A DNA stretch of 22,543 nt from a virus. The notes below the pieces were generated by a model. That model made no database searches and was not told where the DNA came from. It worked only from the letters and a program-made list of their open reading frames with translations. This document shows, in pieces, positions 7,941 to 22,543 of this stretch. The DNA is taken from positions 1 to 22,543 of IMG/VR virus record IMGVR_UViG_3300043429_000350. One strand, given 5' to 3'. Positions within the stretch are counted from its first letter, which is position 1; each line of letters begins with the position of its first letter. The position numbers and the translations under genes were made by a program.

Positions 7941-8651
7941 ATGAGTGCTGTTGTTATTTTACCTACCACAGGTGCGCCTGAGGTACGTACTGCAATTGAA
8001 AGTGTTTTAAATCAAACATATCCCACCAAATTATATTTGGTATGTGATGGTGACCAATTCAAAGGCAAGGTTAAAACTATTGCTGATGAATACTTAGGAA
8101 ATCCCAACTTTAAAGTCTGTTATCTACCAGACAACGTAGGTGCAAATGGTTTTTATGGCCATCGTGTCTATGCAGCTTTCTCACACCTAGTTAACGAAGA
8201 ATATGTTTTATTCTTAGATCAAGACTGTTGGTTCGATAAAGATCATGTAGGTTCTTGTGTCTTAAAGATCAAAGAGAAAAATCTTGAGTGGTCTTATTCA
8301 CTTAGAAAGATAATGGACAAAGACGGCAATTACATATGTAACGATGATTGTGAAAGTCTTGGTTTGTGGCCTGCATGGACAAAAGTAAATCACATCGACA
8401 CAAATTCTTATTGTGTGCGTAGAGATGTTCTAATCAGAATGGCCTCAATTTGGCATGGTGGATGGGGACAAGATAGAGTATTCTTGCAAGCAATAACCAC
8501 TCATTTCAAGAGATGGGATTGTACCAAAAAATATACAGTAAATTATAGATTAGCTGGTAATCAAGGTTCTGTTACTAAAGAATTTTTTGATGAAGGCAAC
8601 AAAGTGATGTCTGAAAAATATAATGGAGTTCTACCTTGGCGAAACGACTAG
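7941..8651 (+). CDS. Family 2 glycosyltransferase (GT-A fold)
   Basis: A 236-residue glycosyltransferase, first gene of the glycan cluster. The N-terminus VVILPTTGAPEVRTAIESVL followed by NQTYP is a typical GT2 nucleotide-sugar binding start. LVCDGDQ (33-39) is the first acidic motif, and FLDQDCWF (91-98) matches the DxD motif that holds the metal and sugar nucleotide. A later WGQDR motif sits where GT2 enzymes have the catalytic base. There is no membrane segment, so it should act in the cytoplasm. Donor and acceptor cannot be told. Its end overlaps the next gene by 16 bases. Confidence 0.85.
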   Translation: MSAVVILPTTGAPEVRTAIESVLNQTYPTKLYLVCDGDQFKGKVKTIADEYLGNPNFKVCYLPDNVGANGFYGHRVYAAFSHLVNEEYVLFLDQDCWFDKDHVGSCVLKIKEKNLEWSYSLRKIMDKDGNYICNDDCESLGLWPAWTKVNHIDTNSYCVRRDVLIRMASIWHGGWGQDRVFLQAITTHFKRWDCTKKYTVNYRLAGNQGSVTKEFFDEGNKVMSEKYNGVLPWRND

Positions 8652-9427
8652 TAATCGGTAAGACCAGTTTTATTGCAAAGGAACTGGCCAAACTAGAAGA
8701 TTTTGATATAGTTGGGTATAATAATATACATCATGTTGATTTTTCAAAATATGATTGTGTGGTTAATTGTGCATTGAATCCAACATTTAAAACACAACCT
8801 TATGACCAAGAAAAGGATGTGGATTATCAGATGGCAAAACTTTCATATGAAAGTGGATGTAATTATGTAATGTTGTCCACAAGAAAGGTATATGGTTCAT
8901 ATGCAGATTTAAGAACATTTACCGAAGAAAGTCAGACAAATCCATTTGACTTTTATAGTGAAAATAAGTTAATATCTGAATACAAGATTCAAAAAGAATT
9001 TGGTGATAAGTCGGTAATTGTTCGTGGATCAAACCTTTTCGGTTTTGAACTTGGTAGACAATCATTCATGGGATTTTGCATGAATCAATTGATATCCGAC
9101 TCAAAGATTGTCTTTACTATCAGTGAACATGTAAAAAGAGATTTCATTGATATAGGTACATCATGTATGTTGCTTGATAGTATTTCAAAAAGAAAATTAA
9201 CTGGAATTTATAATTTGAGTTCCAACTATGGATTAGAAATAGGAAAAGTTGCAAAATATCTGATTCGTGGATATGGCGCTGGTGAATTTTTATGCACAAG
9301 TGATGTTATGAAAGAACAGTTCATCATAGACAATAACAAGCTCACAAAAGAACTTAATATATCTACTCAACCATTGTATATTACTAACATCATTCGGAAA
9401 TTGGGAGAAGAATTGTGCGAGATATGA
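8636..9427 (+). CDS. NAD(P)-dependent sugar-nucleotide epimerase/reductase (extended SDR)
   Basis: A 263-residue Rossmann-fold protein of the extended short-chain dehydrogenase family that acts on nucleotide sugars. It has a degenerate glycine motif GKTSFIA (8-14), a conserved serine/threonine segment STRKVYG (81-87) and the catalytic pair Y107-x3-K111 (YSENK). VRGSNLFG and VKRDFI are in the expected places for dTDP-4-dehydrorhamnose reductase or UDP-sugar epimerase relatives. The start is a TTG; GGAG lies seven bases before it, and the first beta strand (KRLVIG) begins at once, so no ATG start would preserve the fold. The glycine motif lacks the third glycine, as in several reductases of this group. 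It probably makes or interconverts a sugar donor for the neighbouring transferases. Confidence 0.8.
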   Translation: MAKRLVIGKTSFIAKELAKLEDFDIVGYNNIHHVDFSKYDCVVNCALNPTFKTQPYDQEKDVDYQMAKLSYESGCNYVMLSTRKVYGSYADLRTFTEESQTNPFDFYSENKLISEYKIQKEFGDKSVIVRGSNLFGFELGRQSFMGFCMNQLISDSKIVFTISEHVKRDFIDIGTSCMLLDSISKRKLTGIYNLSSNYGLEIGKVAKYLIRGYGAGEFLCTSDVMKEQFIIDNNKLTKELNISTQPLYITNIIRKLGEELCEI

Positions 9428-10269
9428 TTATTAGTGCCGTATCCGAATATGGTTACGACAAGATGAAGTATTGGGTAAACTCAATCAAACAAACTGGATT
9501 CAAGGGTATAATTGCAATTATAGCCTTTAATATGAAAGATGAAACGAAGAAGAAACTTGAAGAACAGGGTGTAACTGTTTATCTTGCTTCTCAGAATAGA
9601 AACAAAAATAATGATGGTTACTTATTCGTTGAAGGATTAACTTATCAAGTACCAATGCTCAGACATCATTTCTATTGGGCATTATTGAATCAACTCAAAG
9701 ACCAAGATATACGATATGTTATTTCAACCGATATATCTGATGTCGTATTTCAAGTGAATCCATCAACATGGCTTGAAAACAATCTTGGTGACAAAAAACT
9801 TAATTATGGTTGCGAAGGTTTAAAATATAAAGATGAGGCCTGGGGAAATCAAAATATGATGGATTGTTTTCCTCAACTTTATCAACACATGAAAGATAGG
9901 CCAATCTATAATGCCGGTTCAATGGCAGGTGAATTTAATACATTTAAAGACTTTTCATTGGCTGTTTCTTTGGCAATAAGTAATATACAAAATCCAACAC
10001 CAGATCAAGCTGGTGTTAATGTGATGTTATCTATTGAACCATATCTTTCATTAACCAAATTTAACGATCATGATGACAATTGGGCATGTGAATGTGGAAC
10101 TACAGTAGACCCCAACAAAATAAACACCTTTAGGCCTCATCTATTGAGTCCTGAACCTGTTTTTGATGGTGAGTATGTTTACACAAGTAAAGGTGAAAAA
10201 TATGTAATGGTGCATCAATATAATAGAGTACCGGATTGGAAAGATAAAATTGAAAGAAAATATGAATAA
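9424..10269 (+). CDS. Putative glycosyltransferase (GT-A-like)
   Basis: A protein of 281 residues from ATG 9424, or 284 from GTG 9415. The ATG forms an ATGA overlap with the upstream stop, while the GTG has GGAGAAG close upstream; I cannot decide. The N-terminus reads like a nucleotide-diphospho-sugar transferase (YDKMKYWVNSIKQTGFKGI). YVISTDISDVVFQ (about 98-110) is a likely acidic metal motif. YNAGSMAGEF and DQAGVNVML are typical of later GT-A motifs, and VHQYNRVP near the C-terminus supplies a histidine as in GT8-like enzymes. I cannot place it in a numbered family. It lies in the middle of the glycan operon, consistent with the assignment. Confidence 0.7.
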   Translation: MIISAVSEYGYDKMKYWVNSIKQTGFKGIIAIIAFNMKDETKKKLEEQGVTVYLASQNRNKNNDGYLFVEGLTYQVPMLRHHFYWALLNQLKDQDIRYVISTDISDVVFQVNPSTWLENNLGDKKLNYGCEGLKYKDEAWGNQNMMDCFPQLYQHMKDRPIYNAGSMAGEFNTFKDFSLAVSLAISNIQNPTPDQAGVNVMLSIEPYLSLTKFNDHDDNWACECGTTVDPNKINTFRPHLLSPEPVFDGEYVYTSKGEKYVMVHQYNRVPDWKDKIERKYE

Positions 10270-11083
10270 AGATATTTCAGTTGTCACAGCATTTTATGAT
10301 ATAGGTAGAGGAAATTTACCAAAGTCTAAACATGGACGTGAACTGCCATTCTATCAACATAGAAGTGTTGACACTTATTTTGAATTCTTTAGTAACTTAG
10401 CTAAACTACAAAATGAGATGGTGATATACACCACTCCAGATTTTGAAGATAGAGTTTTAACAATTCGAAAAGAAAATGGACTTGAAGAACTCACTAAAGT
10501 TGTAACTAGAGAATCGTATCTACCAACAGAATATGAACAAATAAAAGAACGTGTTCAAAAAACTATGGATGATCCTAATTATTATGATAAAGTCATTAAT
10601 CCACAATTAATAGAATATTGGCATGCTGATTATGTGTTGGTTAATATATTCAAGGCTTGGTATGTAACAGATGCTATCGAAAAGAATTTAATATCAAACG
10701 ACTTGACTGCATGGATCGATTTTGGTTACGTTCGTAATAACACTACGATACCTGCATCAAATCGTTGGACATATGATTTCAATAAAGAGAAAATACATTT
10801 CTTTAATCAACGTAATATTGATCCTAGACCAATAAATGACATAATATATACTGGAGATGTTTATATACAAGGTTGTCATATTGTTGCTGGCACAAAGAAA
10901 TGGTCATTACTGAAAGAACTAGTAATGGACAATGTAAATTTATTATTGTTACACAATTTGATTGATGATGACCAAACTCTTTTGTTGATGTCATTTCTCA
11001 CCAAACCCGATGAATTTGAATTGCATCCAGCAGATCCAAATGATTGGTTCAGAATTTTTAGAAAATATAATGATAACATATGA
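10262..11083 (+). CDS. HtrL/YibB-family glycosyltransferase-like protein
   Basis: A 273-residue protein resembling the HtrL_YibB family, found in LPS and surface-glycan loci. The N-terminal motif VVTAFYDIGRG (7-17) is the family hallmark, followed by an MVIYTT strand (53-58) and WIDFGYVRN (151-159), the probable acidic sugar-nucleotide motif. C-terminal sequences such as CHIVAGTKKW and DDQTLLL also fit. I chose ATG 10262; a TTG at 10250 would add four residues. The gene overlaps its upstream neighbour by eight bases and the next gene by ATGA. Family members are thought to be transferases, but the sugar is unknown. Confidence 0.8.
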   Translation: MNKDISVVTAFYDIGRGNLPKSKHGRELPFYQHRSVDTYFEFFSNLAKLQNEMVIYTTPDFEDRVLTIRKENGLEELTKVVTRESYLPTEYEQIKERVQKTMDDPNYYDKVINPQLIEYWHADYVLVNIFKAWYVTDAIEKNLISNDLTAWIDFGYVRNNTTIPASNRWTYDFNKEKIHFFNQRNIDPRPINDIIYTGDVYIQGCHIVAGTKKWSLLKELVMDNVNLLLLHNLIDDDQTLLLMSFLTKPDEFELHPADPNDWFRIFRKYNDNI

Positions 11084-11823
11084 ACATCGATATAGTATCT
11101 CCTAGAATCCATAATTTGGGTGATTTTGCTCATTGTTTACCTGCATTATCGGCCTTATATAAAAGGTTTGACAAGAAAATATCATTTACAATCTGTGATA
11201 GATTACAAAGATTTAAAGGTATCAGAGAACTACTATTGGAACAGGAAATGTTTTCTAATGTTTGGTTCTTACACGAAAAACAGTTCAACCCTATGAATTG
11301 TGTACTTATGGATGATACAGGAACAGAAGAAGGCAATCTCAATTCTCCTATTGTCGTTAGAAAATATCTAAACTTTTTAAATCACACATACAAATTAGAT
11401 TTAGAAAGTGATGATAACTTTGAATTACAAATACCAAAATATGATATCGATTACCACTCCGACAAACTTATTATTGGTGATAGATGGTCACCAAAAGATG
11501 CACCTGATGTGGATGAACGGAGATATTCCAATTTAATAGAAACATCTGAAATTATTCCACATAAAAAAGGTTTTTGTCTTGACTATACTAATGAATTATT
11601 GTATAATTGTTCGTTAATCAAATATAATACAAATGCATTTGTTACCACATTTACTGGTATTGCTGTACTTGCCGATCTTATGAAGAAAGATAGTTATATC
11701 TTGTGGGACGAAGATATGAGAAATTGGCAAGGTTGGGATATAGAACATGTATTTAAAATGCATTTCTATCAAGATAGGGAATCAAAACTAGTTTATTTAA
11801 AAGATTTTAAATATGATTATTAA
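11080..11823 (+). CDS. GT9-like (heptosyltransferase-like) protein
   Basis: A 247-residue protein that looks like a compact GT-B glycosyltransferase related to the ADP-heptose:LPS transferases. The opening IVSPRIHNLGDFAHCLPAL (5-23) has the GD...PAL pattern of the acceptor-binding start of family 9. The C-terminal part (FVTTFTGIAVLADLMKK, about 187-203) takes the place of the conserved donor-binding GDSGxxHLA region but lacks the classic residues. Catalysis is therefore uncertain. It is shorter than bacterial heptosyltransferases (about 320-350). It is followed by a second GT9-like gene that overlaps it by 11 bases, so the two may work in series or as a pair. Confidence 0.6.
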   Translation: MNIDIVSPRIHNLGDFAHCLPALSALYKRFDKKISFTICDRLQRFKGIRELLLEQEMFSNVWFLHEKQFNPMNCVLMDDTGTEEGNLNSPIVVRKYLNFLNHTYKLDLESDDNFELQIPKYDIDYHSDKLIIGDRWSPKDAPDVDERRYSNLIETSEIIPHKKGFCLDYTNELLYNCSLIKYNTNAFVTTFTGIAVLADLMKKDSYILWDEDMRNWQGWDIEHVFKMHFYQDRESKLVYLKDFKYDY

Positions 11824-12520
11824 TATTGAGCCACACAATTTCGGTGGACCACTCCGCAACGGAGATATTATTGCTGCACTGAATTTCTATGCTTGGTTGG
11901 CACCACAACATGGTGGTGATATTAAACTTCACATTCCAGATCGATCAATACATCAATCTGATTATATCATTAAATTTCGTAATTGGTTGAATGACAACGT
12001 TTCTTTCCTTTCCACCGATGCAGGAACGAATTCATTGAATGTGAATAATGTGAATCTTTGGGATTTTAGATCATTAACTGGTGATATACTATTACTAGAT
12101 TTTAATCGGCCAATGAAAAAGAAAATTGTAATTGCTCCATTGTTTGATGGTGCATATAACACATATAGAAACTGGTCCAATCCAATGTTAGATTCTATCG
12201 TTGAACATTACTCGAAAGATGAGTATAAGGATTATGAAAAGATTATTTGTGCAAAGAGTGATACACATACAACCTTCTATGATGGTTGGAAAAATAGTTA
12301 TGATTTTATTGAAAACATAGAACATATAGTTGATTGTAGTCACTATGTTGGTGGTGATACTGGAACATCACACTTTGCATCTGTCTTACCTAAGAAAGAG
12401 AAATTAAATTATTATTATGGATCAGTAGGACTATTACATACTACTCCTTTCTATGCGATGCAAGGAAAAGGAAATATAAACATGTTTCACAATAGTAATT
12501 GGAGATTAGATTTATTATGA
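11813..12520 (+). CDS. GT9-like (heptosyltransferase-like) protein, second copy
   Basis: A 235-residue GT-B-like protein. FGGPLRNGDIIAALNF (10-25) matches the GD-containing N-terminal loop of family 9 enzymes. VGGDTGTSHFASVL (179-192) is a good match to the donor-binding VGGDSGxxHLA motif, better kept than in the preceding gene. Between them KKKIVIAPL begins the second Rossmann domain. The protein is about a third shorter than bacterial LPS heptosyltransferases. The adjacent gene looks like a distant paralogue with the acceptor loop retained and the donor motif worn. Its stop overlaps the methyltransferase start as ATGA. Confidence 0.65.
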   Translation: MIINIEPHNFGGPLRNGDIIAALNFYAWLAPQHGGDIKLHIPDRSIHQSDYIIKFRNWLNDNVSFLSTDAGTNSLNVNNVNLWDFRSLTGDILLLDFNRPMKKKIVIAPLFDGAYNTYRNWSNPMLDSIVEHYSKDEYKDYEKIICAKSDTHTTFYDGWKNSYDFIENIEHIVDCSHYVGGDTGTSHFASVLPKKEKLNYYYGSVGLLHTTPFYAMQGKGNINMFHNSNWRLDLL

Positions 12521-13170
12521 GAATTTATAAAAAAATGTTTGGTGATATTGGTGGTTATTTGTATCAGGACAAAATGACAGGACCTATACCAGATTATTCT
12601 TCATCATATTCAAAACAAAGATATGATACTTATACAACAAATGATAGAATGTCTGAGTTGAGATTTAATTTGTTAACCAAAGTAATTAAAAACTTTAGTA
12701 GTGTTACCGACTTTGGTTATGGTAATGGTGCATTTCTACAACATTGTGTCAAGAACGGTAAGACAACCTACGGGTTTGATATATCGGATTATCCGACACC
12801 TATAGGTTCTCTAAAAATTGATAATGTAAATGATTATGAAGTTGATGTGGTAACTTTTTATGATTCACTTGAACATCTTCCAGAGATGGAATTAGTTCCT
12901 TTTCTCCGTGGTCTGAAAACAAAATACGTTTGTATTTCTGTACCTTGGTATCACGAAGAACAAGGAAACGAATGGTTTATGAATTGGAAGCACCGTAGAG
13001 AAAACGAACACTTACACCATTTTGATTCACATGGTTTGGCCAATTTACTTAACTCCTCCGATTATAAAGTTCTTTACTTGGGTAATTGTGAAGATGTTGT
13101 AAGAACTCCTGTTGATGGCCTACCCAATATATTAACTGTTATTGCAATCAAAAAGAATCGTAACACATGA
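12517..13170 (+). CDS. SAM-dependent methyltransferase (class I)
   Basis: A 217-residue methyltransferase with a Rossmann-like SAM fold. Motif I is VTDFGYGNGAFL (63-74), the acidic ribose-binding residue is in YGFDIS (85-90), and motif IV appears as TFYDSLEHLPE (113-123), typical of the Methyltransf_11/23 group. VCISVPWYHEEQ and HRRENEHLHHFD suit the later strands and substrate pocket. I chose ATG 12517, which overlaps the upstream stop (ATGA) and has GGAG upstream at a rather long distance; an in-frame TTG at 12499 would add six residues. In this cluster it most likely methylates a sugar residue of the glycan, but a protein or small-molecule target is not excluded. Confidence 0.8.
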   Translation: MRIYKKMFGDIGGYLYQDKMTGPIPDYSSSYSKQRYDTYTTNDRMSELRFNLLTKVIKNFSSVTDFGYGNGAFLQHCVKNGKTTYGFDISDYPTPIGSLKIDNVNDYEVDVVTFYDSLEHLPEMELVPFLRGLKTKYVCISVPWYHEEQGNEWFMNWKHRRENEHLHHFDSHGLANLLNSSDYKVLYLGNCEDVVRTPVDGLPNILTVIAIKKNRNT

Positions 13171-13847
13171 AAACACTTAGTATAACAGTTATTGATACTT
13201 TACACTATACACCAAGTATTAAAGCACTTAAAAAAACACTTGAAACTTTAGGTGATAAGATTACATCGGTTTATTGGTTTAGTGATATTCCTTTTCCTGA
13301 ACCTATTGATGTAGAAGTTTTTTGGATAAAAATACCAAGAATTAAAAGTTATAATGATGAATATGGTAATATTACATTAAAACTTTGTCCTGTTATTTGT
13401 ACTGAAGATTTTAATTTGATTATTCATTCTGATGGGTTTGCAGTCAACAAAGATGCATGGACTGATGAATTCTTTGAATATGATTATATTGGTGCAACAT
13501 GGCAAGACGGCCGTGTTGGTAATGGTGGTTTCTGTTTGAGGTCACAAAAACTGTATCAAGCATTAAATAAAATGAATGTCAATTTTGCTACAGAACAGTT
13601 TGGTGGTTTAATACATAATTCAGATTATCATGTATTTACAAAAGGTCAATATCTTATTCCTGAAGATAATGTTATTTGCAAAATACATAGAAATGAATTA
13701 GAAACAAAACACGGAATCAAATTTGCACCATCACACATTGCAAATAGATTCAGTGTAGAACTTAACTACAATCACGAATGGGTTGGAAAAAGTTTAGGGT
13801 TTCATGGTAAACATGGTATTGCGAAAAATTATGGAGTTGAATTATGA
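13167..13847 (+). CDS. DUF5672-family glycosyltransferase-like protein
   Basis: A 226-residue protein matching the DUF5672 pattern as I remember it. FNLIIHSDGF (82-91) carries the acidic position usually written as QtDsf. YDYIGATW (105-112) and VGNGGFCLRS (117-126) are the family core, and E..F..DYHVF follows at about 142-157. Proteins with this core occur in glycan loci of bacteria, phages and giant viruses and are thought to be GT-A transferases, without much biochemistry. The gene is coupled on both sides by ATGA overlaps. No membrane segment is present, so it should act on a cytoplasmic acceptor. Confidence 0.75.
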   Translation: MKTLSITVIDTLHYTPSIKALKKTLETLGDKITSVYWFSDIPFPEPIDVEVFWIKIPRIKSYNDEYGNITLKLCPVICTEDFNLIIHSDGFAVNKDAWTDEFFEYDYIGATWQDGRVGNGGFCLRSQKLYQALNKMNVNFATEQFGGLIHNSDYHVFTKGQYLIPEDNVICKIHRNELETKHGIKFAPSHIANRFSVELNYNHEWVGKSLGFHGKHGIAKNYGVEL

Positions 13848-14575
13848 AAGATATTAAAATTTACATTCATGCAATGGACTTACCTAACGGTAAACAAATT
13901 TTAGAAGAACAAGTAGAATTACTTGAAAGAACAGGATTAATTGATGCTGCTGCAGAAATTAATTTGATGATGCATTTCAACAAAGAAAATTTCAAGTGGC
14001 TTGAAGATAGATGGCAAAACAGGCCGAATGTAAAATTCCATTTATTTGATGAAAGTTATAAAGAGTGGTTTGAAGGAACTACCATACAAGGAATACAAGA
14101 ACGGGCTCATGCATCAGAAGATGAGTATTATGTTCTTTGCATGACATGTAAAGGAATTTCTCATGCACCAGGTGGCCATCAAAATTGGCGTCACTATATG
14201 CAATACTTCACTGTTGAGAAATGGAAAGAATGTGTAGAAAAACTGAATGAAGGTTATGACACCGTAGGTGCAGCATACTTACCTGATCCTCCTTATGGAT
14301 TCTATCCAGGTACTTTCTTTTGGGCAAAAGCATCATACATCCGTAAATGTCATAGACTCTTACCACCACCTGAGGCAAATTTCAAACCGCAATTTGAAGG
14401 ACAACCGCATCATAGATTTGATATGGAGTGTTGGATTGGCAGTGGAAAACCTAATTGGTATGAAATGCATTTAGGTCCTAGTGGTCGATGGTATTCACCT
14501 CCATCATATTATAGGACAGATGTTCAGGAAGTAACACAAAAAGAAGGTGTTTGGACTTATAAAGTAGAGATGTAA
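13844..14575 (+). CDS. Putative glycosyltransferase-like protein (TCKGISH...NWRxYM family)
   Basis: A 243-residue protein that I link to an unnamed transferase-like family common in viruses and marine bacteria. YYVLCMTCKGISHA (95-108) corresponds to the family pattern ending in HTKG(I/V)S, here with Thr-Cys-Lys. NWRHYMQYFTVEKW (114-127) and YPGTFFWAKASYI (154-166) follow in the expected order. The last block resembles the product-side loop of GT-A enzymes. The first 60 residues look like a nucleotide-binding start (IKIYIHAMDLPNGKQILEEQ). No function has been shown as far as I know. It closes the run of transferase genes before the dehydrase. Confidence 0.65.
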   Translation: MKDIKIYIHAMDLPNGKQILEEQVELLERTGLIDAAAEINLMMHFNKENFKWLEDRWQNRPNVKFHLFDESYKEWFEGTTIQGIQERAHASEDEYYVLCMTCKGISHAPGGHQNWRHYMQYFTVEKWKECVEKLNEGYDTVGAAYLPDPPYGFYPGTFFWAKASYIRKCHRLLPPPEANFKPQFEGQPHHRFDMECWIGSGKPNWYEMHLGPSGRWYSPPSYYRTDVQEVTQKEGVWTYKVEM

Positions 14576-14599
14576 AATTCACATTAAAGGATTTTTTAA

Positions 14600-15886
14600 A
14601 TGAACACGAATGATTTGATTAATGAACTGGCAGTTACAGTTCAACCAAAGTATGTTAAAAAATATGATGATTACAAAGAAGGCGACTTCATTCAATATTC
14701 CGGTCAATTGTGGGATGAAAATGAAATGCGAGTTGCACTTGATGCCTTACTGAATGGTAAATGGGTAACATCAGGTGAAAAGGTCGCACAATTTCAAAAT
14801 AAATTCAGTAAGAAATTTGATGTGAAGTATTCACACATGGTCAATTCTGGTAGTTCGGCCAACCTTGTGATGATTACTGCATTAAAACATTATTTAAAAT
14901 GGCAGGATGGTGATGAGATTATCGTATCACCTGTAGGATTCCCAACCACAATCGCACCTATCGTTCAAAATGGAATGAAGGCCGTATTCATCGATATTGA
15001 ATTGAATACACTCAATTTCGATATTGATCTAATTGAATCTAAGATTACACCTAGAACCAGAGGTATATTTGTTTCTCCCGTACTTGGTAATCCGCCTGAC
15101 ATGGACAAATTGAAAGATATTTGTGAAAGACACAACATTCTTTTGATTGGTGATAACTGTGATTCATTAGGCACACGTTGGGATGGTAAGTTGCTAACAG
15201 ATTATTATTACTGTTGGTCTACATCATTTTATCCGGCGCACCATATCTCTACAGGTGAGGGTGGAATGGTTTGCTCTAATGATGAAGCGTACATGAATAT
15301 TGCACGTAGTGTATCATGGTGGGGACGTGATTGTTACTGTGTTGGTTCAAACAATTTATTGGAATGTGGAACTTGTGGTAATCGTTTTGATGAATGGTTG
15401 GCCAACTATAATGGTACAATCGATCATAAGTATGTTTTCACAACTATGGGTTATAATTTAAAACCTTTAGACTTACAGGGTGCTATTGGTATAGAACAAC
15501 TGAAGAAGTTTGAATACATTGATGAAAAGCGTCGTGAATATAAGGACGTTGTACAAAAATCGATTCGGAATCACATCAAACAAGTAAGAGTAATTGATGC
15601 ATTACCAAAAGGTGATCCTTCTTGGTTTGGTGTTCCTATTTACTGTGAATCACAACAAGTAAAAGAAAAACTGGTTGCACATTTTGAAGCAAACAAGATT
15701 CAAACTCGTAATTACTTTAGTGGTAATATATTGTTGCATCCTGGTTATCAACACCTAGATGATTATAGAAATTATCCAAATTCAAACCTCGCACTCAGTA
15801 ATGTATTCTTTGTTGGATGCTCACCATTATGGAACTATAAAATTCTAAATTATATCGACAAGGTATGTGAAAAATGGAACGATTAA
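14600..15886 (+). CDS. RfbH/E1-type PLP sugar 3-dehydrase with Fe-S cysteine motif
   Basis: A 428-residue member of the DegT/DnrJ/EryC1/StrS fold, specifically the 3-dehydrase branch (RfbH/AscC, E1), which removes the 3-hydroxyl of a CDP-4-keto-6-deoxyhexose. MVNSGSSAN (80-88) binds the PLP phosphate. At the usual PLP-lysine position the sequence is SFYPAHHISTGEGG (209-222), so H214 replaces lysine as in E1 and ColD. Cysteines C187, C245 and C247 reproduce the E1 spacing C-X57-C-X1-C. The fourth, C259 in CGNRF, sits 11 residues on instead of 7 because of a short insertion that adds C256. This indicates a [2Fe-2S] cluster. DHKYVFTTMGYNLKPLDLQ also matches RfbH. The electron-donating reductase (E3/RfbI) is not in the window. 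AAAGGA precedes the ATG by about nine bases. Confidence 0.88.
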   Translation: MNTNDLINELAVTVQPKYVKKYDDYKEGDFIQYSGQLWDENEMRVALDALLNGKWVTSGEKVAQFQNKFSKKFDVKYSHMVNSGSSANLVMITALKHYLKWQDGDEIIVSPVGFPTTIAPIVQNGMKAVFIDIELNTLNFDIDLIESKITPRTRGIFVSPVLGNPPDMDKLKDICERHNILLIGDNCDSLGTRWDGKLLTDYYYCWSTSFYPAHHISTGEGGMVCSNDEAYMNIARSVSWWGRDCYCVGSNNLLECGTCGNRFDEWLANYNGTIDHKYVFTTMGYNLKPLDLQGAIGIEQLKKFEYIDEKRREYKDVVQKSIRNHIKQVRVIDALPKGDPSWFGVPIYCESQQVKEKLVAHFEANKIQTRNYFSGNILLHPGYQHLDDYRNYPNSNLALSNVFFVGCSPLWNYKILNYIDKVCEKWND

Positions 15887-16710
15887 TTAATGTCTTTGGT
15901 AAAGGCTTTGTTGGTACTCGATATTGTGAATTAACTGGCCACACAAAAATTGTTAATGCTCGTGATGACTATGAAGTGACACCTGGTGTCACCGATATAG
16001 TTTATTTCATTTCAACTGTTGATAATTATAATGTGCATACAGACCTACACATCGACATTGATACAAACTTATCTGTATTAATGGATGTGTTGAAATCTTT
16101 TAGAGAGAATTCACCTGATGCAGTCTTTAATTTCATAAGTTCGTGGTTCGTTTACGGTAACGTTGAATTACCAGCCAAAGAAGATTCACATTGTGATCCT
16201 AAAGGTTTCTATTCAATTACAAAAAGAACCGCAGAACAATTACTGATATCATATTGTGAAACTTTTGGATTAAAATATCGCATATTAAGATTAGGTAATG
16301 TTCTAGGTACAACCGATAATAAAGTATCTAAGAAGAAGAACGCCTTACAATACATGATTAATGAAGTTAAACAAGGTAATGATATTGACCTGTATGATAA
16401 CGGAATGGTTTATAGAGATTACTCCCATGTTGATGATATAGTTCGTGCAATCAATATTGTCATTGAAAGTGGTGAAGTCGATGACATCTACAATGTTGGC
16501 AGTGGAGAACCAATTTACATAAAGGATGCGATGGAATATGCAGTCAAGGCCTCAGGTTCGACCTCGAAATTGAATAGTATTCCTCCAGCCGAGTTTCATA
16601 ATGTAGTCCAGACCAAAAACATGGTCTTGGACATTTCCAAGATCAAAAACCTTGGATTTACACCAAAGTATAATTTCTACAATATTGTCGATAGTTTATT
16701 GTATAAATAA
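15874..16710 (+). CDS. NAD(P)-dependent sugar-nucleotide reductase/epimerase (extended SDR)
   Basis: A 278-residue extended SDR. GKGFVG (9-14) is the dinucleotide motif, S89/S90 lie in NFISSWFVYG (86-95), and Y113-x3-K117 (YSITK) is the catalytic pair. RLGNVLG (139-145) and YRDYSHVDDIVRAI are standard for nucleotide-sugar epimerases and reductases. It overlaps the RfbH-like gene by 13 bases. In bacteria the product of that dehydrase is reduced at C4 by an SDR of about this size (paratose or abequose synthase, RfbS/RfbJ). I infer the same pairing here; a 4-epimerase is the main alternative. It is the last gene of the glycan cluster, and its stop codon overlaps a late-promoter box. Confidence 0.8.
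   Translation: MERLINVFGKGFVGTRYCELTGHTKIVNARDDYEVTPGVTDIVYFISTVDNYNVHTDLHIDIDTNLSVLMDVLKSFRENSPDAVFNFISSWFVYGNVELPAKEDSHCDPKGFYSITKRTAEQLLISYCETFGLKYRILRLGNVLGTTDNKVSKKKNALQYMINEVKQGNDIDLYDNGMVYRDYSHVDDIVRAINIVIESGEVDDIYNVGSGEPIYIKDAMEYAVKASGSTSKLNSIPPAEFHNVVQTKNMVLDISKIKNLGFTPKYNFYNIVDSLLYK
16702..16709 (+). promoter_or_regulatory. T4-type late promoter (TATAAATA)
   Basis: TATAAATA is an exact match to the T4 late-promoter -10 box recognised by the gp55 sigma-like factor with gp33 and the gp45 clamp. It overlaps the stop of the last glycan gene and lies 44 bases before the ATG at 16754. RNA would begin near 16714-16717, leaving a leader of about 40 bases that carries AAGGAA as ribosome binding site. 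No sigma70-like -35 box is evident, as expected for this class. It sits exactly where the gene content changes to capsid-targeted proteins, which supports a real late unit. Confidence 0.7.
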
Positions 16711-16753: not shown

Positions 16754-17929
16754 ATGTTATCGTTTATTAAGTTTCTCGGAGAAGAAACGGAAGGTGCTAA
16801 ACTCAAACACATCACCCATGCAGAGGATCGTCCTCTACAAAAGGGTGGTGAGGGTTTTACACATGCCGTTGGTGCATTAAATCAGGCTCATGAACAGATG
16901 AAGTCTGGTGGCCACAGTTCTGCACTCACCATGAAATACGACGGTTCACCTTCTATTGTATTCGGACATCACCCCAAAACAGGTAAATTCTTTGTTGCAT
17001 CCAAATCTGCATTTAATAAGACACCTAAACTAAATTACACAGAATCAGACATCGATAAACATCATGGTCACGCACCTGGTCTGGTAAGTAAATTAAAAGA
17101 CGCTTTAGAACACTTACCAAAAGTTGCACCTAAAAAAGGTGTATATCAAGGTGACCTAATGTTCTCAGGTGACGATAAAAAAGAAACCAAACATGGAGTT
17201 TCTTTTACACCCAACACAATTACCTATTCCGCCAAGGGTGAAATGGGAGACAAGATTCGTAAGGCCAAATTAGGTGTTATTGTACATACTCAGTATCATG
17301 GTGATGATATTACATCAATGTCGGCTGATTCTCATCCAGATATTCACAACTTCAAACAACATAATGATGTGTGGCATCAATCAGCTGAACATGATACATC
17401 TAAGATAAACTACCCTGAAAAAGATCAACAGGAATATCAAAGTCACATCGATGCAGCCAAGAAGATACATGATGGTAAACATGGTGACACCATGTATAGT
17501 GTAACTGAACCACATCAAGGTGAAAGTGGTCATCTAGAAACCTATATCAATCACACTGTAAGAACCGATGAGAAACCTACTGCAAAAGGTTTAATCAAAC
17601 ATATTGAGGGTAAATACAAGAAGGCCGCAATAAAGTTAAAAACGCCTGCTGCACAAGGACGTAAAACTGCTGAAGCACAACAACATACAGACTATATTAA
17701 ATATCACAGTGAACATTATGATAATTTACTGAAAATGCATAATCATTTACAACAAGCGAAAGACATACTTGTTAAAAATTTAGAAAAACACACAGGCGGT
17801 TTGGAACATCACATAGATAATAAACCAACAGGTCCGGAAGGATTCGTTGTTAATCATGGTGGTGAACCTACGAAGTTGGTTAATCGTAAAGAATTCGCTA
17901 AAGCAAACCTTTTAAAAGTTAGAAAATGA
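16754..17929 (+). CDS. Ligase-fold nucleotidyltransferase-like protein with capsid-targeting N-terminus (DUF6267-like)
   Basis: A 391-residue protein. Its first ten residues, MLSFIKFLGE, fit the T4 capsid targeting pattern, with [LI]-x-E at 8-10 as a prohead-protease site. The rest follows the order of motifs in ATP-dependent DNA/RNA ligases and capping enzymes. KYDGSPSIVFG (61-71) is motif I with K61 as candidate nucleotide-bearing lysine. GVYQGDLMF (129-137) resembles motif III, EGFVVNHGG (362-370) motif IV, and TKLVNRK (373-379) motif V. It appears related to phage proteins labelled DUF6267, by memory. A large His-rich insert lies between III and IV. I start at ATG 16754, which has AAGGAA five bases upstream; a GTG at 16727 would bury the targeting peptide. 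Overlap with the next gene is ATGA. Enzymatic activity is inferred. Confidence 0.75.
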   Translation: MLSFIKFLGEETEGAKLKHITHAEDRPLQKGGEGFTHAVGALNQAHEQMKSGGHSSALTMKYDGSPSIVFGHHPKTGKFFVASKSAFNKTPKLNYTESDIDKHHGHAPGLVSKLKDALEHLPKVAPKKGVYQGDLMFSGDDKKETKHGVSFTPNTITYSAKGEMGDKIRKAKLGVIVHTQYHGDDITSMSADSHPDIHNFKQHNDVWHQSAEHDTSKINYPEKDQQEYQSHIDAAKKIHDGKHGDTMYSVTEPHQGESGHLETYINHTVRTDEKPTAKGLIKHIEGKYKKAAIKLKTPAAQGRKTAEAQQHTDYIKYHSEHYDNLLKMHNHLQQAKDILVKNLEKHTGGLEHHIDNKPTGPEGFVVNHGGEPTKLVNRKEFAKANLLKVRK

Positions 17930-19710
17930 GATCATTTTTAGAAGTAATTAAAGAAGAAAAACAGGGTGAAAATCACCACGTTATGACCTTTGGTCGAATG
18001 AATCCACCAACGACTGGTCATTTAAAGTTGATTGATAAAGTGCATGAAATTGCAAAGAAGCATAATGCTGGCCATACAGTATTCACTTCTCATTCGCAAG
18101 ATTCTAAAAAGAATCCATTATCTGCTGCACAAAAAGTCAAACATTTAAAACGTTATGCACCAGGTACTAACTTTAAAGCATCATCAAAAGAACATCCTAC
18201 GTTCTTACATGCAGCTACAAATTTACATAAGAGTGGTGTAACACACCTACACATGGTCGTTGGTTCTGATCGTGTGAAAGAGATGAAAGAGAAGTTACAC
18301 AAATATAATGGAACACATGAGGGTGCATTATATCACTTCAAACATATTACAGTACATTCTGCTGGTCATCGTGATCCAGATGCAGAAGGAACATCTGGTA
18401 TGTCTGGTACCAAGATGCGTGAACACGCCAAGAATAAAGATTTGAAATCATTTAGAGGTGGTGTACCGTCTCATGTATCAGATACTCATGCAAAAGAATT
18501 AATGCATGATACTCGTAAGGGTATGGGTCTACATGAATCACATTATCGTGGTATGTTCAAGGCCATATTTGTTACTGGTGGACCTGGTTCAGGTAAAGAT
18601 GTTGTATTGCGTGAAGCAATTGCAGAAGCAAGAGCTGTCGAACTAAATTCTGTACAGGCCATGGATTATCTGAATGACAAACAAAGATTATCTGAAAAGA
18701 CAAATGATTATCGTAGAGAAGCAATTCGTAATCGTTCACCATTAATTATTAATGGACCTGCTGATAACCAAGAATCAATACTTAGAATCAAGGAAGAATT
18801 GGAAGAACTTGGATATGATACATTGATGGTATTTGTTGATACCACAAATGAGGCAAGTAGAGATAGAAACGAAAAACTAACAAAGATGATTGCTGAAGGT
18901 GTTAGACAAGATAAGTGGAATCAAGCTCAACAAAGTAAAGAATCTTATAATAAAGTCTTTGAGAATTTCATTCATTTTGATAATAGTGCATCTTTAGAAG
19001 ATATTGAAGAAACTATTACTGACACCTATCAAACGATAAATACATTTATAGAAGGTAAAGATTTTAATGAAATATCATATTCTTGGTTACAAAACCATGA
19101 TATGTTAAATACAATTGGAACTATTAAGGAAAATGAAAATGTTAAGCCGTCTTTTAAATTTATTCAAAAGCTCAACGAAAAGCGACAAGCATCCATTGGA
19201 GTTTACAGAAAAAACAGCTCAGTTGAGAAAGCCGACAGTCCAGCCGACATCAAGCAAGACAGTCGACCAGGAGACCCAAGTGCAGACGACATTAAGTGGG
19301 ACGGAAACAAAAAACGTGGTGGGTACACCTTCAGAACCTACACCGAAGGCCAAGATCAAAAAGTCTCCAACTTCCAAAAAGACAAAGAAACAATAAAGAA
19401 GAAAAGATATAGTGATTCTCCCACACCAAATGCAAGGTTGAGAAACACAACAGGTCTAGGACCAGAATTTGATACACGCCAGCAGGGAACAGTATACCCT
19501 ATGTCCGGATTAGGCGATGTAACCTACAGAGAACAAAAAGAGTTTAAGAGTTTCAGAAAAGTCAAAGAAGCTATTGATGATCCAGGTGCAAATGACATGG
19601 GTGTTGGTGGTGTTCTTGGTGGTTCTATGAACAAAGAACCTATGCAGACTTATGCAAATCAAGATAAGAATGTTGAAGTAGAAACACCTAAGAAAAAGAA
19701 AAAGAAATGA
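17926..19710 (+). CDS. Capsid-targeted nucleotidyltransferase-kinase fusion protein
   Basis: A 594-residue multidomain protein. MRSFLEVIKE (1-10) fits the capsid targeting pattern with I-K-E at 8-10. Domain 1 (about 17-195) is a cytidylyltransferase/NMN adenylyltransferase-like fold with TFGRMNPPTTGH (21-32, T-x-G-H signature) and MSGTKMREH (159-167, the second nucleotide-binding signature). Domain 2 (about 208-370) is a P-loop kinase-like domain with FVTGGPGSGKD (215-225), followed by a helical lid region (RDRNEKLTKMIAEG). The order recalls NadR, but the sequence is distant and the substrate unknown. The tail (about 400-594) is disordered and includes modules such as GPEFDTRQQGTVYPMSGLG and VGGVLGGSMNKEP, which I recall from other marine phages. 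Bases 19170-19390 within the tail are richer in G+C than the flanks. It overlaps both neighbours by ATGA. Confidence 0.75.
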   Translation: MRSFLEVIKEEKQGENHHVMTFGRMNPPTTGHLKLIDKVHEIAKKHNAGHTVFTSHSQDSKKNPLSAAQKVKHLKRYAPGTNFKASSKEHPTFLHAATNLHKSGVTHLHMVVGSDRVKEMKEKLHKYNGTHEGALYHFKHITVHSAGHRDPDAEGTSGMSGTKMREHAKNKDLKSFRGGVPSHVSDTHAKELMHDTRKGMGLHESHYRGMFKAIFVTGGPGSGKDVVLREAIAEARAVELNSVQAMDYLNDKQRLSEKTNDYRREAIRNRSPLIINGPADNQESILRIKEELEELGYDTLMVFVDTTNEASRDRNEKLTKMIAEGVRQDKWNQAQQSKESYNKVFENFIHFDNSASLEDIEETITDTYQTINTFIEGKDFNEISYSWLQNHDMLNTIGTIKENENVKPSFKFIQKLNEKRQASIGVYRKNSSVEKADSPADIKQDSRPGDPSADDIKWDGNKKRGGYTFRTYTEGQDQKVSNFQKDKETIKKKRYSDSPTPNARLRNTTGLGPEFDTRQQGTVYPMSGLGDVTYREQKEFKSFRKVKEAIDDPGANDMGVGGVLGGSMNKEPMQTYANQDKNVEVETPKKKKKK

Positions 19711-20231
19711 AAAGTTTCAAACAGTTTTTAAATGAAAAAGGTCGTTGCTGGCCAGGACATAAACCTGTTCCCGGAAAAAAACCATATTCACCTGGTAGTT
19801 GTGTTAAAGAAGATCATGTTGAAAAACTTGAAGCAGGTTTAAAAAAGTTGGATAATACTGATTATGATACTATAGATAGATTGATGAAAAGAATATCTAA
19901 GGATCATGAAGTTAGTCCAAAAGAATTACATAACGATTTTAAATCTAAACATGGAAAAACACCAGATGATTGGATTAAATCTAAGCAAAAATCAGAAATA
20001 AAAGAAGATTTACGTAAGTGGTTTGCTCAAAAATGGGTTCGTATGGACACAAAAGGCAATATTAAAGGCCAATGCGCTCGTGAACCTGGAGAAGGTAAGC
20101 CTAAATGTTTACCACAATCTAAAGCACATGCTTTAGGTAAAGAAGGTAGAGCATCAGCAGCTCAGAGAAAACGTAGAGAAGATCCAAATCCAGAACGTAG
20201 AGGTTCACCAATAAATGTTAGGACAAAGTAA
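19707..20231 (+). CDS. Small basic mosaic protein with capsid-targeting N-terminus
   Basis: A 174-residue, very basic protein. MKSFKQFLNE (1-10) is the best match in the window to the T4 capsid targeting peptide. Three small modules follow: a Cys-containing segment with CWPGHKPVPGKKPYSPGSC (14-32); a helical region with DYDTIDRLMKRISK and HGKTPDDWIK (about 52-91); and, after a second I-K-E site (98-100), a Cys/basic module with DLRKWFAQKWVRMD, QCAREPGEGKPKC and RKRREDPN (101-160). I recall each module in other proteins of marine phages or viruses, in different combinations. The high positive charge suits DNA binding in the head, as for T4 internal proteins. Overlap with the previous gene is ATGA. 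Confidence 0.75.
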   Translation: MKSFKQFLNEKGRCWPGHKPVPGKKPYSPGSCVKEDHVEKLEAGLKKLDNTDYDTIDRLMKRISKDHEVSPKELHNDFKSKHGKTPDDWIKSKQKSEIKEDLRKWFAQKWVRMDTKGNIKGQCAREPGEGKPKCLPQSKAHALGKEGRASAAQRKRREDPNPERRGSPINVRTK

Positions 20232-20726
20232 ATGAAAACATTTAAACAGTTTTTAGATGAATCTGAAACTTTAGAAGAAAAAAATACACCAACAAGTCCT
20301 GAGAAATGGGCTAGAGCAAAAGCTGCAGCTAAGTCAAAGTTTGCAGTTTATCCTTCAGCCTATGCTAATGCTTGGGCTTCAAAGAAATATAAATCTATGG
20401 GTGGTGGATGGAAATCAGTCAGCGAAGAAAACGAAGAAATTGAACTCGATGAAGTTGCTGCATGGCAACGTAAAGAAGGTAAATCTGAATCTGGTGGATT
20501 AAACCGTAAAGGTATTGAATCTTACCGTAGAGAAAATCCAGGTTCTAAGTTATCGATGGCAGTTACAACAAAACCATCTAAACTAAAGGCAGGTTCTAAA
20601 GCAGCTAATAGAAGAAAATCATTTTGTGCTAGAATGACCGGTATGAAGAAAAGACTAACATCTGCGGCCACTGCTCGTGATCCAGATTCAAGAATTAATA
20701 AATCACTACGTAAGTGGAATTGCTAA
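20232..20726 (+). CDS. Small basic mosaic protein with capsid-targeting N-terminus
   Basis: A 164-residue basic protein. MKTFKQFLDE (1-10) closely resembles MKTYQEFIAE of T4 internal proteins and has the L-D-E cleavage site at 8-10. Module 1 (about 22-60) contains PEKWARAKAAAKSKFAVYPS and ANAWASKKYKSMGGGW. An acidic linker EENEEIELDE (65-74) follows, ending in a second L-D-E site. Module 2 (75-164) contains AWQRKEGKSESGGLN, RKSFCARMTGMKK and a C-terminal SLRKWNC, a type I remember as a recurrent phage domain (possibly DUF6321). The gene begins directly after the previous stop. Cleavage at both sites would release two basic domains. Confidence 0.75.
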   Translation: MKTFKQFLDESETLEEKNTPTSPEKWARAKAAAKSKFAVYPSAYANAWASKKYKSMGGGWKSVSEENEEIELDEVAAWQRKEGKSESGGLNRKGIESYRRENPGSKLSMAVTTKPSKLKAGSKAANRRKSFCARMTGMKKRLTSAATARDPDSRINKSLRKWNC

Positions 20727-20738
20727 AAGGAGATTCAC

Positions 20739-21782
20739 ATGTTTAACACTAATAAAAAAGATGCAGTAGCTGAAGCAGTTGCAAAGGTTCTTGCACAAGA
20801 AGCTGAACTATCAGCCAAACAAAAAAAGATTGCTAAAATTGCTGGCGACAAAGAAAAGATCGATGCGGAAGATTTAGCAGCATTACGTGCTGGAAAGAAA
20901 CCTGTTGAAGAAGGTTTCGATGATATGGACAAATATCTAAAAGATAAAAACAAACCACAACCAAGTGGTGGCGCTGGTAAGAAACAAGGTTCGAAATATG
21001 GTGGTAGCAAACAAAAAGAAGAACCAAAAGAAGATATGAAAGAAGATGTTGAATCAGTAGATGAGAAGGCACCTCCAGGTTTCGAAGGTACTGTTAAGGC
21101 CATGAAGAAACATAAAGAGATTGATAATCCTTTTGCATTGGCTTGGTCAATGAAGAATAAGGGATATAAGAGTCACAAAAAGGCCGATGGTTCAATGAAG
21201 AAAGAAGAAGTTGAATCACTTGATGAATTGAAAAAATCAACTCTTGGTTCTTACATAAACAAAGCTGCTAAAGACCAATCAAATGATGCTTTTGACCATG
21301 GTGAAGATGAACACCGTCAATATGGTACACCAGGTGAAGATCCAGAAAGAGATAAAGACCTTGAGGACCGTGAACGCAAAATGTCCAATCGTGAAAAAGG
21401 TATTGGTCGTGCTGTAAAAAAATTATCAAAAGAAGAATTTGAATTAGACGAAGCAGTTTCACGTAAACACTTCCAACAAGTTGCTGATTTAATTAAAACA
21501 CATGATGATGCAGGCAAACGTAAAGAGTTGGCTCAACATCATGCTGAAATCTTCAAACAACAAAATCCACGTTTTGACCATGCTAAGTTCATGAAGGCTG
21601 CTGGCGTAAACGAAGAAGTTGAACATGTTGAAGAAGATATCAACAAAGATAGAACTAAAGACATGATCTCTGGTCGTAAACCAACAAAGCAAACTGACGA
21701 TGTTGGACCAGGTTCAGATGGTAAAAGCACAAAAGCAAAACTATCAGCGGAATCTTGGTTGAAGAACCTAAAAAAAAAGTAG
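20739..21782 (+). CDS. Modular, possibly processed late protein ending at a frameshift-like site
   Basis: A 347-residue charged protein with a strong ribosome binding site (AAAAGGAG). It lacks the capsid targeting peptide of the preceding genes. Modules separated by acidic linkers are visible: KQKKIAKIAGDKEKIDAEDL to KK (about 27-54); APPGFEGTVKAMKKHKEIDN and GYKSH (111-145); LKKSTLGSYINKAAKDQ (164-180); and RKHFQQVADLIKTHDDAG with QHHAEIFKQQNPRFDHAKFM (242-286). Linkers at 101-109, 155-163 and 231-238 end in V-D-E or L-D-E. These modules recur in marine T4-like phages in varied order, as I recall, without known function. A head core/scaffold component or a precursor of internal peptides fits context and linkers. 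The gene ends in AAA AAA AAG TAG, a slippery context, and the -1 frame stays open afterwards. Confidence 0.75.
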   Translation: MFNTNKKDAVAEAVAKVLAQEAELSAKQKKIAKIAGDKEKIDAEDLAALRAGKKPVEEGFDDMDKYLKDKNKPQPSGGAGKKQGSKYGGSKQKEEPKEDMKEDVESVDEKAPPGFEGTVKAMKKHKEIDNPFALAWSMKNKGYKSHKKADGSMKKEEVESLDELKKSTLGSYINKAAKDQSNDAFDHGEDEHRQYGTPGEDPERDKDLEDRERKMSNREKGIGRAVKKLSKEEFELDEAVSRKHFQQVADLIKTHDDAGKRKELAQHHAEIFKQQNPRFDHAKFMKAAGVNEEVEHVEEDINKDRTKDMISGRKPTKQTDDVGPGSDGKSTKAKLSAESWLKNLKKK

Positions 21783-21949
21783 TTGAAGGAAAAGATCCAA
21801 CTATGGATGCAGGTTGTGGATGTGAACCAAATTTTGTACAGAACGCAAACACAACCTCAAGTCCAATGTTGAAATCAAAAGATAACGCAAAGAAATCATT
21901 TAAACGAGTTAAAACTGAAATGTTAGGTAAAGCAGGGACATCAGAATGA
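21755..21949 (+). CDS. Short ORF in the -1 frame, probable frameshift extension of the preceding gene
   Basis: This frame is open from 21725 and ends at 21949. It encodes VEEPKKKVVEGKDPTMDAG, then CGCEPNFVQ, and ends in a basic segment (KKSFKRVKTEMLGKAGTSE). If ribosomes slip -1 at 21773-21779, or if one A is missing from the A tract in this assembly, the preceding protein continues from its residue 347 through VVEGKDPT for 56 more residues, giving 403. Alternatively translation could start independently at the TTG at 21755 or at ATG 21803, which has AAGGAA about 11 bases upstream. The final stop overlaps the next gene by ATGA, as between true operon members, so the frame is probably expressed. 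I recognise no domain beyond the Cys-Gly-Cys motif. Confidence 0.55.
   Translation: MVEEPKKKVVEGKDPTMDAGCGCEPNFVQNANTTSSPMLKSKDNAKKSFKRVKTEMLGKAGTSE
21773..21779 (+). promoter_or_regulatory. Candidate -1 ribosomal frameshift heptamer (A AAA AAG)
   Basis: The 20739 gene ends in codons CTA AAA AAA AAG TAG. This contains A AAA AAG in the correct phase, the same heptamer that drives -1 frameshifting in Escherichia coli dnaX, with the stop codon immediately after it. A possible hairpin begins at once: TAGTTG (21780-21785) pairs with CAACTA (21798-21803) around a 12-base loop. The zero spacing and modest stem are not ideal for stimulation, and I see no strong Shine-Dalgarno-like enhancer upstream. 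A one-base assembly error in the nine-A tract would look the same. Confidence 0.5.
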
Positions 21950-22543
21950 ACGATAAAGTCGAAAAAATTAAATCAATATTATTCGAAGTCAAGGCCTTAG
22001 ATAGATACTTATTGTCTAGAGGTATTGATCCTCGATTTGTGTCCGTAGACCAAAAGGTTAGTCACGCCAAATCTGGTCAATTTCAAAAATGGTTACAAGA
22101 TCGTAAATTTGAAGAATTTGAATCTGAAGATGAAGTTATCGAAGAAGAAACTCCACAAGAGAAATTCAAATCTGGTCTAAAGAAAGCTGGTTACGATCCT
22201 GATAAAGGTGCTAAACGTTTAACTGACCTTATTGCTAAGCAAAAGAAAGACCGTGAAGAACATGAAAAGAAATATGGCCATCTTTATGCAAAAGAAGGAA
22301 CTGATTACTCTTTGGTCAAAGGTCAATCTAGTAATACATACAAAAATGATGTTAAGTTAAGCAATGGTTATGTAACAAAAGTTGCAAAACAACCAAAAGG
22401 TGAGTATGAACGTAGCGTTGACAAATATCTGAAAAAGAAATATAACAAAGAAGAAGTGGACTCTGTTGAAGAAAGTGTTTTAAAAACAGTTAAACGTGCT
22501 GTTCAAGGATGGGGTCATGACCCGATTGGTGTTGGAAGTAAAC
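21946..22543 (+). CDS. Modular charged late protein, 3' end outside the window
   Basis: The frame from ATG 21946 is open to the window end (199 codons), so this is a partial gene. The start overlaps the previous stop as ATGA. The N-terminus, with ILFEVKALDRYLLSRGID, PRFVSVDQKVSHAKSGQF and QKWLQDRK, is a module I recall from other marine phage proteins. It contains L-F-E at 12-14, a weak [LI]-x-E match, but not the ten-residue targeting peptide. An acidic linker (FEEFESEDEVIEEETPQE, about 55-72) leads to a basic region (KFKSGLKKAGYDPDKGAKRL). Another acidic linker (KEEVDSVEES, 168-177) comes before KTVKRAVQGWG. The layout matches the 20739 gene, suggesting the same class of product. Confidence 0.75.
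   Translation, partial: MNDKVEKIKSILFEVKALDRYLLSRGIDPRFVSVDQKVSHAKSGQFQKWLQDRKFEEFESEDEVIEEETPQEKFKSGLKKAGYDPDKGAKRLTDLIAKQKKDREEHEKKYGHLYAKEGTDYSLVKGQSSNTYKNDVKLSNGYVTKVAKQPKGEYERSVDKYLKKKYNKEEVDSVEESVLKTVKRAVQGWGHDPIGVGSK

Follow-up and report, generated by a model that had tools for sequence, protein, structure and literature searches.

The heptamer A_AAA_AAG is among the most efficient –1 frameshift motifs in E. coli (PMC4066793). Such a site can be arranged in two ways in the dnaX gene: in E. coli the shift yields the short form of the protein, and a reversed form has been suggested for Chlorobium phaeobacteroides, so that both layouts are on record in the account of dnaX given in PMC5009743. 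We analyzed a stretch of viral DNA of 22,543 nucleotides (IMG/VR virus record IMGVR_UViG_3300043429_000350, positions 1 to 22,543; hereafter, the window), in which a gene of 347 codons on the + strand (20739-21782) has a 3′ end that reads CTA AAA AAA AAG TAG. An earlier note, made from the letters of the window, had pointed out that A_AAA_AAG stands at this 3′ end in the phase for –1 slippage, and that the –1 frame stays open over 56 codons until an ATGA overlap with the next gene; both statements are borne out by the letters. It had also proposed a 403-residue form with a Cys-Gly-Cys motif, and the predicted shifted product indeed has that length (347 + 56 = 403 residues) and includes CGC. 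The features of the junction are as follows.

20739..21782, + strand: 0-frame gene, short product of 347 aa, modular, with E-E-V-E-x-[LIV]-D-E linkers
21770..21778, + strand: run of nine A's, also nine in the relative L003
21773..21779, + strand: slippery heptamer A_AAA_AAG in the –1 phase
21780..21782, + strand: 0-frame stop TAG, abutting the heptamer
21779..21949, + strand: –1-frame tail, 56 codons plus stop TGA, matching the C-terminus of continuous homologues
21946..22542, + strand: next gene (LDRYLLSRGI protein), ATGA overlap with the tail stop, running off the window

A second in-phase heptamer, A_AAA_AAA, is found at 21770-21776, and the tail stop TGA (21947-21949) overlaps the start codon of the next gene (ATG, 21946).

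Because dozens of sequences from related phages keep this junction of an uncultured T4-like phage, a slip of the ribosome back by one base is probable there. The overall best explanation, which we hold to be likely, is that the gene at 20739 makes two proteins, of 347 and 403 aa, by a –1 slip on A_AAA_AAG. Ribosomes that remain in frame would terminate at TAG after ...KKK and release the 347-aa protein, and a fraction would slip back one base on A_AAA_AAG and continue with GTA GTT GAA..., so that a basic, conserved C-terminal module (56 residues) extends the product to 403 aa. With more modest confidence, we suggest that the frameshift may set the number of protein copies carrying the C-terminal module.

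Slippery heptamers adjacent to stop codons

The stop-adjacent slippery heptamer at 20739-21782 is more than chance would produce. Of the window's stop-to-stop frames with 60 aa or more (37 on the + strand and 38 on the – strand), only this one carries A_AAA_AAG or A_AAA_AAA before its stop. The loci of 190 contigs supplied 1313 + strand frames of 80 aa or more, and A_AAA_AAG was found directly before the stop in only two of those that do not belong to the gene family, with 2 open –1 codons past the site in L004 and 191 in L169. A_AAA_AAA preceded the stop in nine more loci (L019, L020, L062, L068, L069, L071, L080, L082 and L105).

The junction in related contigs

In many relatives, found by searches anchored on the next gene and on the tail, a similar tail closes one continuous ORF just 5′ of the homologue of the next gene. 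The relatives used were the best 80 of 133 from one search and the best 80 of 209 from the next-gene search. A tail profile divided the 110 tail-bearing contigs among the matches listed, window included, into 53 continuous and 57 split contigs, where tail matches ending more than 12 residues before the frame end and contigs with no recognisable tail were left out of the classing. The junction was compared among these relatives, as the earlier note had proposed, and A_AAA_AAG in the same phase, with a shift of –1 in each case, was found in 55 split contigs out of 57, counting the window; together with the conserved tail, this recurrence strongly supports its proposal of programmed frameshifting that yields a short and a long form. 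The 0-frame stop follows the heptamer directly in 54 of the 55, the exception being L129 with one sense codon between, and the 54 split relatives with the heptamer derive from 49 metagenome ids. Two truncated relatives outside the 110, L230 and L234, show the same junction. The users of the heptamer fall into five sequence types, with junctions that read as follows.

Window and L003: CTA AAA AAA AAG TAG
L160: GAA AAA AAA AAG TGA
L141: GAA AAA AAA AAG TAA
L129: GAA AAA AAA AAG AAT TGA
Main clade (50 contigs): GAA AAA AAG TAA

The tail matched no PHROG or Pfam family, and no GenBank phage record was matched by the tail of the window (E up to 0.1), by the L087-type tail (E up to 1) or by the L153-type start of the next gene. 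The upstream modules of the gene do match phages, with 195 records in one search and 121 in another. A scan of 84,980 prokaryote genomes with a pattern of the next gene found no relative, and queries with L160 and L141 returned only their own contigs.

Stimulatory signals and the agent of the slip

No SD-like element was found in the window upstream of the heptamer. Downstream, the fold of the first 60 nt after the stop did not surpass that of shuffles (z 0.07), and out of 500 synonymous recodings of the 57 nt after the junction, 457 folded at least as well as the actual sequence. Two structures were considered there.

21780..21803, + strand: hairpin TAGTTG/CAACTA, –3.5 kcal/mol alone, weak and probably not functional
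21811..21857 (21811-21818/21850-21857), + strand: distal 8-bp stem AGGTTGTG/CACAACCT, 31 nt past the heptamer

The hairpin had been put forward in the earlier note, and the complementarity of TAGTTG (21780-21785) to CAACTA (21798-21803) holds, but its strength does not: it is part of the minimum-energy fold of 83 nt (z –1.96) and absent from that of 66 nt (z 0.21). Of the four other split types tested, only the close relative L003 can form it, and TAGTTG/CAACTA was rejected as the main stimulator. The distal stem makes 102 nt unusual, in that 7 of 500 synonymous recodings fold as well; the usual frameshift stimulators sit closer to the slippery site than its 31 nt. In the window, where the run has nine A's, an SD-like element is absent and the adjacent hairpin is not convincing, the slip may be made by the ribosome or by RNA polymerase.

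The 50 contigs of the main clade have a run of seven A's. In 48 of these 50, AGGA is located 7 or 10 nt 5′ of the heptamer, and the 48 of 55 split contigs with an SD-like element all belong to this clade. An 11-bp stem (GAGGCAAAAGG/CCTTTTGTCTC) starts 5 nt 3′ of the heptamer. The dinucleotide-shuffle z of the stem region averaged –3.54 in the main clade (16 unique sequences), compared with –0.45 over 24 continuous relatives (among them L143 with –5.0) and –0.25 over five other split sequences; continuous rows whose profile match starts after position 3 were left out of the SD and z comparison. Synonymous variation was 0.075 in the first 16 codons after GTA and 0.21 beyond them (22 unique sequences), a drop with a permutation P of 0.008 when relatedness is ignored. 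The stem showed no compensatory pair or covariation, and one of its pairs is broken in L137. Compared with synonymous recodings, six of nine representatives were unexceptional (32 to 79 of 500 recodings folded as low), as was L137 (162 of 500), and L148 and L216 were exceptional (2 of 500 each). In L141, which represents a separate lineage, none of 500 recodings folded as low. The main-clade arrangement of these putative signals (AGGA, A_AAA_AAG and stem) is the layout of E. coli dnaX.

The same long protein would result if RNA polymerase added one A on the nine-A run in some mRNAs, and transcriptional slippage of this kind has been reported for An runs with n > 7 (PMC3711429). The run of nine A's in the window, shared by L003, is above this threshold and the ten A's of L141, L160 and L129 likewise favor slippage by the polymerase, but the seven A's of the main clade are not above it, and these 50 contigs nevertheless stay split and carry an SD-like element (48 of 50) and a stem, neither of which slippage by RNA polymerase would require. 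We therefore regard transcriptional slippage as unlikely. Because family members with seven A's keep the same split, the ribosome is favored over RNA polymerase in the window as well, and we infer that it is the agent of the slip.

Selection on the tail and the origin of the split

The pN/pS ratio of main-clade tails was 0.073 in the –1 frame; in the two remaining frames it was 3.8 and 9.5 (24 unique tails, only pairs of equal length). The nearest relative of the window, L003 (IMGVR_UViG_3300046820_002566), has 88% DNA identity to it over 1117 aligned positions and was assembled separately, with nine A's, phase and stop as in the window. The two tails differ at 8 of 171 positions; the changes comprise 5 synonymous and 3 nonsynonymous ones in the –1 frame, and none is synonymous in either of the other two frames. 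These patterns indicate purifying selection on the tail in the –1 frame. In distant relatives, where a single frame encodes it, the tail forms the conserved C-terminus of the gene, which shows it to be a real domain.

On a tree of the tail and the next gene (73 unique rows of 108, 140 columns, with many open forks), four changes were needed to account for the split state, of which the well-supported branches force only one. The window and L003 were placed beside the continuous L101, and the split and continuous forms were intermixed, which suggests that the layout may have been gained or lost repeatedly. One-base indels in A runs are frequent, and this intermixing would also fit a split that is an inherited frameshift mutation, after which the split phages no longer make the tail, or make it only by tolerated and unprogrammed leakage. 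However, the tail is under purifying selection in its –1 frame, and heptamer and phase are kept in 55 contigs; we consider a mere mutation improbable.

Another way to translate the tail would be as a separate small gene, initiated at ATG 21803, which has AAGGA 11 nt upstream, or at another start codon. The tails of L109 and L115 are genes with their own ATG, and GTG or TTG stands at tail codons 1 and 2 in L160 and L129 and at codon 13 in L141. However, L003 has no AAGGA at the position that precedes ATG 21803 in the window, which therefore counts against a separate gene; in the 50 main-clade contigs, ATG, GTG and TTG are absent from the first 24 tail codons, so that the earliest start is at codon 25 or later; and ATG 21803 falls in the part that reads K-D-P-x-M-D-A-G in continuous relatives, for example L101 and L105. 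Separate initiation at an ATG was rejected on these grounds, and we see very little chance that the tail of the window is expressed in this manner. A homopolymer error, by which the real run would be ten A's and the gene continuous, was discarded as scarcely credible: the window is a single assembly and the continuous L085, L140 and L143 read through KKKV, but the diverged L003 from another sample has the same nine A's and frames, and in 50 contigs the split occurs at a run of just seven A's.

Other layouts of the junction

In L109:3322-3504 and L115:3322-3504, the tail is an ATG gene of its own, which starts with MKSFKEFKSLMEG, a T4-internal-protein-like N-terminus, and has an ATGA overlap with the upstream stop. 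The earlier note had named homologues with a separate tail gene as evidence against frameshifting, and such homologues do occur, in these 2 of the 57 split contigs; because the A run is absent there, we regard them as a third layout and not as a refutation.

The gene reads through the junction AAA AAA AAA GTA in one frame in L143, L085, L140 and L147. A –1 slip at this site would run into a stop two codons later and give a short form, as in E. coli dnaX; this stop is dictated by the conserved V-[TN]-E codons and is therefore not independent evidence. The stem after the junction, a strong one in L143, was matched by none of 500 synonymous recodings in L143, by 10 in L140 and by 339 in L085.

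Each of these layouts could retain two products, with the long form made by a shift (the window and the main clade), the short form made by a shift (continuous relatives with nine A's, such as L143) or the tail made from a separate gene with a capsid-targeting-like start (L109 and L115). A wider and more doubtful proposal, which we offer tentatively, is that a dnaX-like frameshift in T4-type phages of uncultured hosts sets, on a modular polyprotein that is packaged and processed by a protease, the copy ratio of the C-terminal module, with evolution toggling between the layouts.

In L203:1658, L204:1655, L217:1829 and similar contigs, a gene further upstream has a poly-lysine run of A's (AAAAAAAAGAAATGA) at its end, followed by 71 open –1 codons, which is possibly a second slippage site or a plain gene overlap.

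Candidate function in the phage head interior

Two stretches of the 347-aa protein match PHROG families of unknown function (phrog_2922 and phrog_5709). The gene at 20739-21782 and its homologues are mosaic, with small modules in varying order and E-E-V-E-x-[LIV]-D-E linkers between them. The linker pattern E[VILF][EQ]x0-2[LIVM][DEN]E occurred 89 times in 81 unique family proteins, compared with a mean of 0.5 in shuffles, although these counts are not independent because the proteins are related. T4 gp21 cleaves at L/I-X-E (PMC9026906); the family linkers resemble this site and have the appearance of sites for a prohead protease. Of the 12 large relatives searched, 9 have the T4-type prohead protease PF03420.

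The genes directly upstream were compared with the T4 internal proteins (ip), of which ipI begins with MKTFKEF, and ipII and ipIII with MKTYQEFIAE.

17926..20726, + strand: three genes with T4-internal-protein-like N-termini (MRSFLEVIKEE, MKSFKQFLNE and MKTFKQFLDE) that match the ip pattern

Among 42 T4 genes, taken from two stretches with cut and internal-start entries left out, the N-terminal ip pattern matched ipI, ipII and ipIII and nothing else. It matched 3 of 28 hand-picked genes of the window, namely the three directly upstream, and 63 of 486 ORFs in the loci of the relatives; both the ip and the linker pattern were written after examples had been seen. Each of the three upstream genes also has an (L/I)-x-E site just past its ip-like start. 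One of them is a cytidyltransferase/ATPase, so that an enzyme may be packaged. The genes that follow the cytidyltransferase of HTVC008M look unrelated when compared by eye. The 347-aa protein itself starts with MFNTNKKDAVAE, which does not match the pattern of T4 ip or capsid-targeting-like N-termini. With modest confidence, we suggest that the modular protein belongs to the phage head interior and would be cut at (L/I/V)-x-E by a T4-type prohead protease.

Between the T4-type replication genes and this cluster, the window contains a DegT-type aminotransferase and sugar epimerase-like genes (8636-16710), perhaps a sugar-modification island.

Comparison with known systems

The mechanism proposed here is already known, and this phage gene family had not been known to use it; the literature searched and the searches of named-phage records gave no account of frameshifting in this gene. 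The family would bring a widespread phage gene, represented by at least 55 contigs (the window among them), into the range of genes that use programmed –1 frameshifting, and it does not belong to the tail chaperones, in which annotators of phage genomes look for frameshifting. Gene callers that ignore frameshifts would split this protein into two and lose its conserved C-terminus. If the protein does belong to the head interior, a link would exist between frameshifting and the stoichiometry of core proteins or injected proteins.

The tail assembly chaperones of the lambda G/GT type are similar in that a phage gene undergoes a –1 frameshift near the end of its first frame. Genes for tail assembly chaperones precede the tape measure gene within a group of tail genes; the neighbors searched here were a cytidyltransferase/ATPase, a DUF6321 protein and unknowns, with no tail gene identified among them, and identity as a tail assembly chaperone was rejected on this basis. 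The T4 internal proteins IPI-III and the other core proteins processed by gp21 are similar with respect to the ip-like starts of the upstream genes, the (L/I/V)-x-E sites and the presence of PF03420 in relatives. They differ in that the gene at 20739 has no ip-like N-terminus and in that packaging is a prediction here, and T4 internal proteins are not known to us to involve frameshifting.

The carboxysome protein CsoS2 is likewise located within a capsid-like shell and made in two lengths through –1 frameshifting, but its shift yields the short form (PMC5009743), and its sequence appears to be unrelated. E. coli dnaX shares A_AAA_AAG and the pair of short and long forms with the gene at 20739, and the main clade adds the SD-like element and the downstream stem; however, dnaX is an unrelated gene, the window has neither stimulator, and the E. 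coli shift leads to the short form. In this last respect the reversed dnaX layout is closer, since its 0-frame stop abuts the site and its long form needs the shift (as outlined in PMC5009743 and PMC3711429), which is also the arrangement at the junction of the window.
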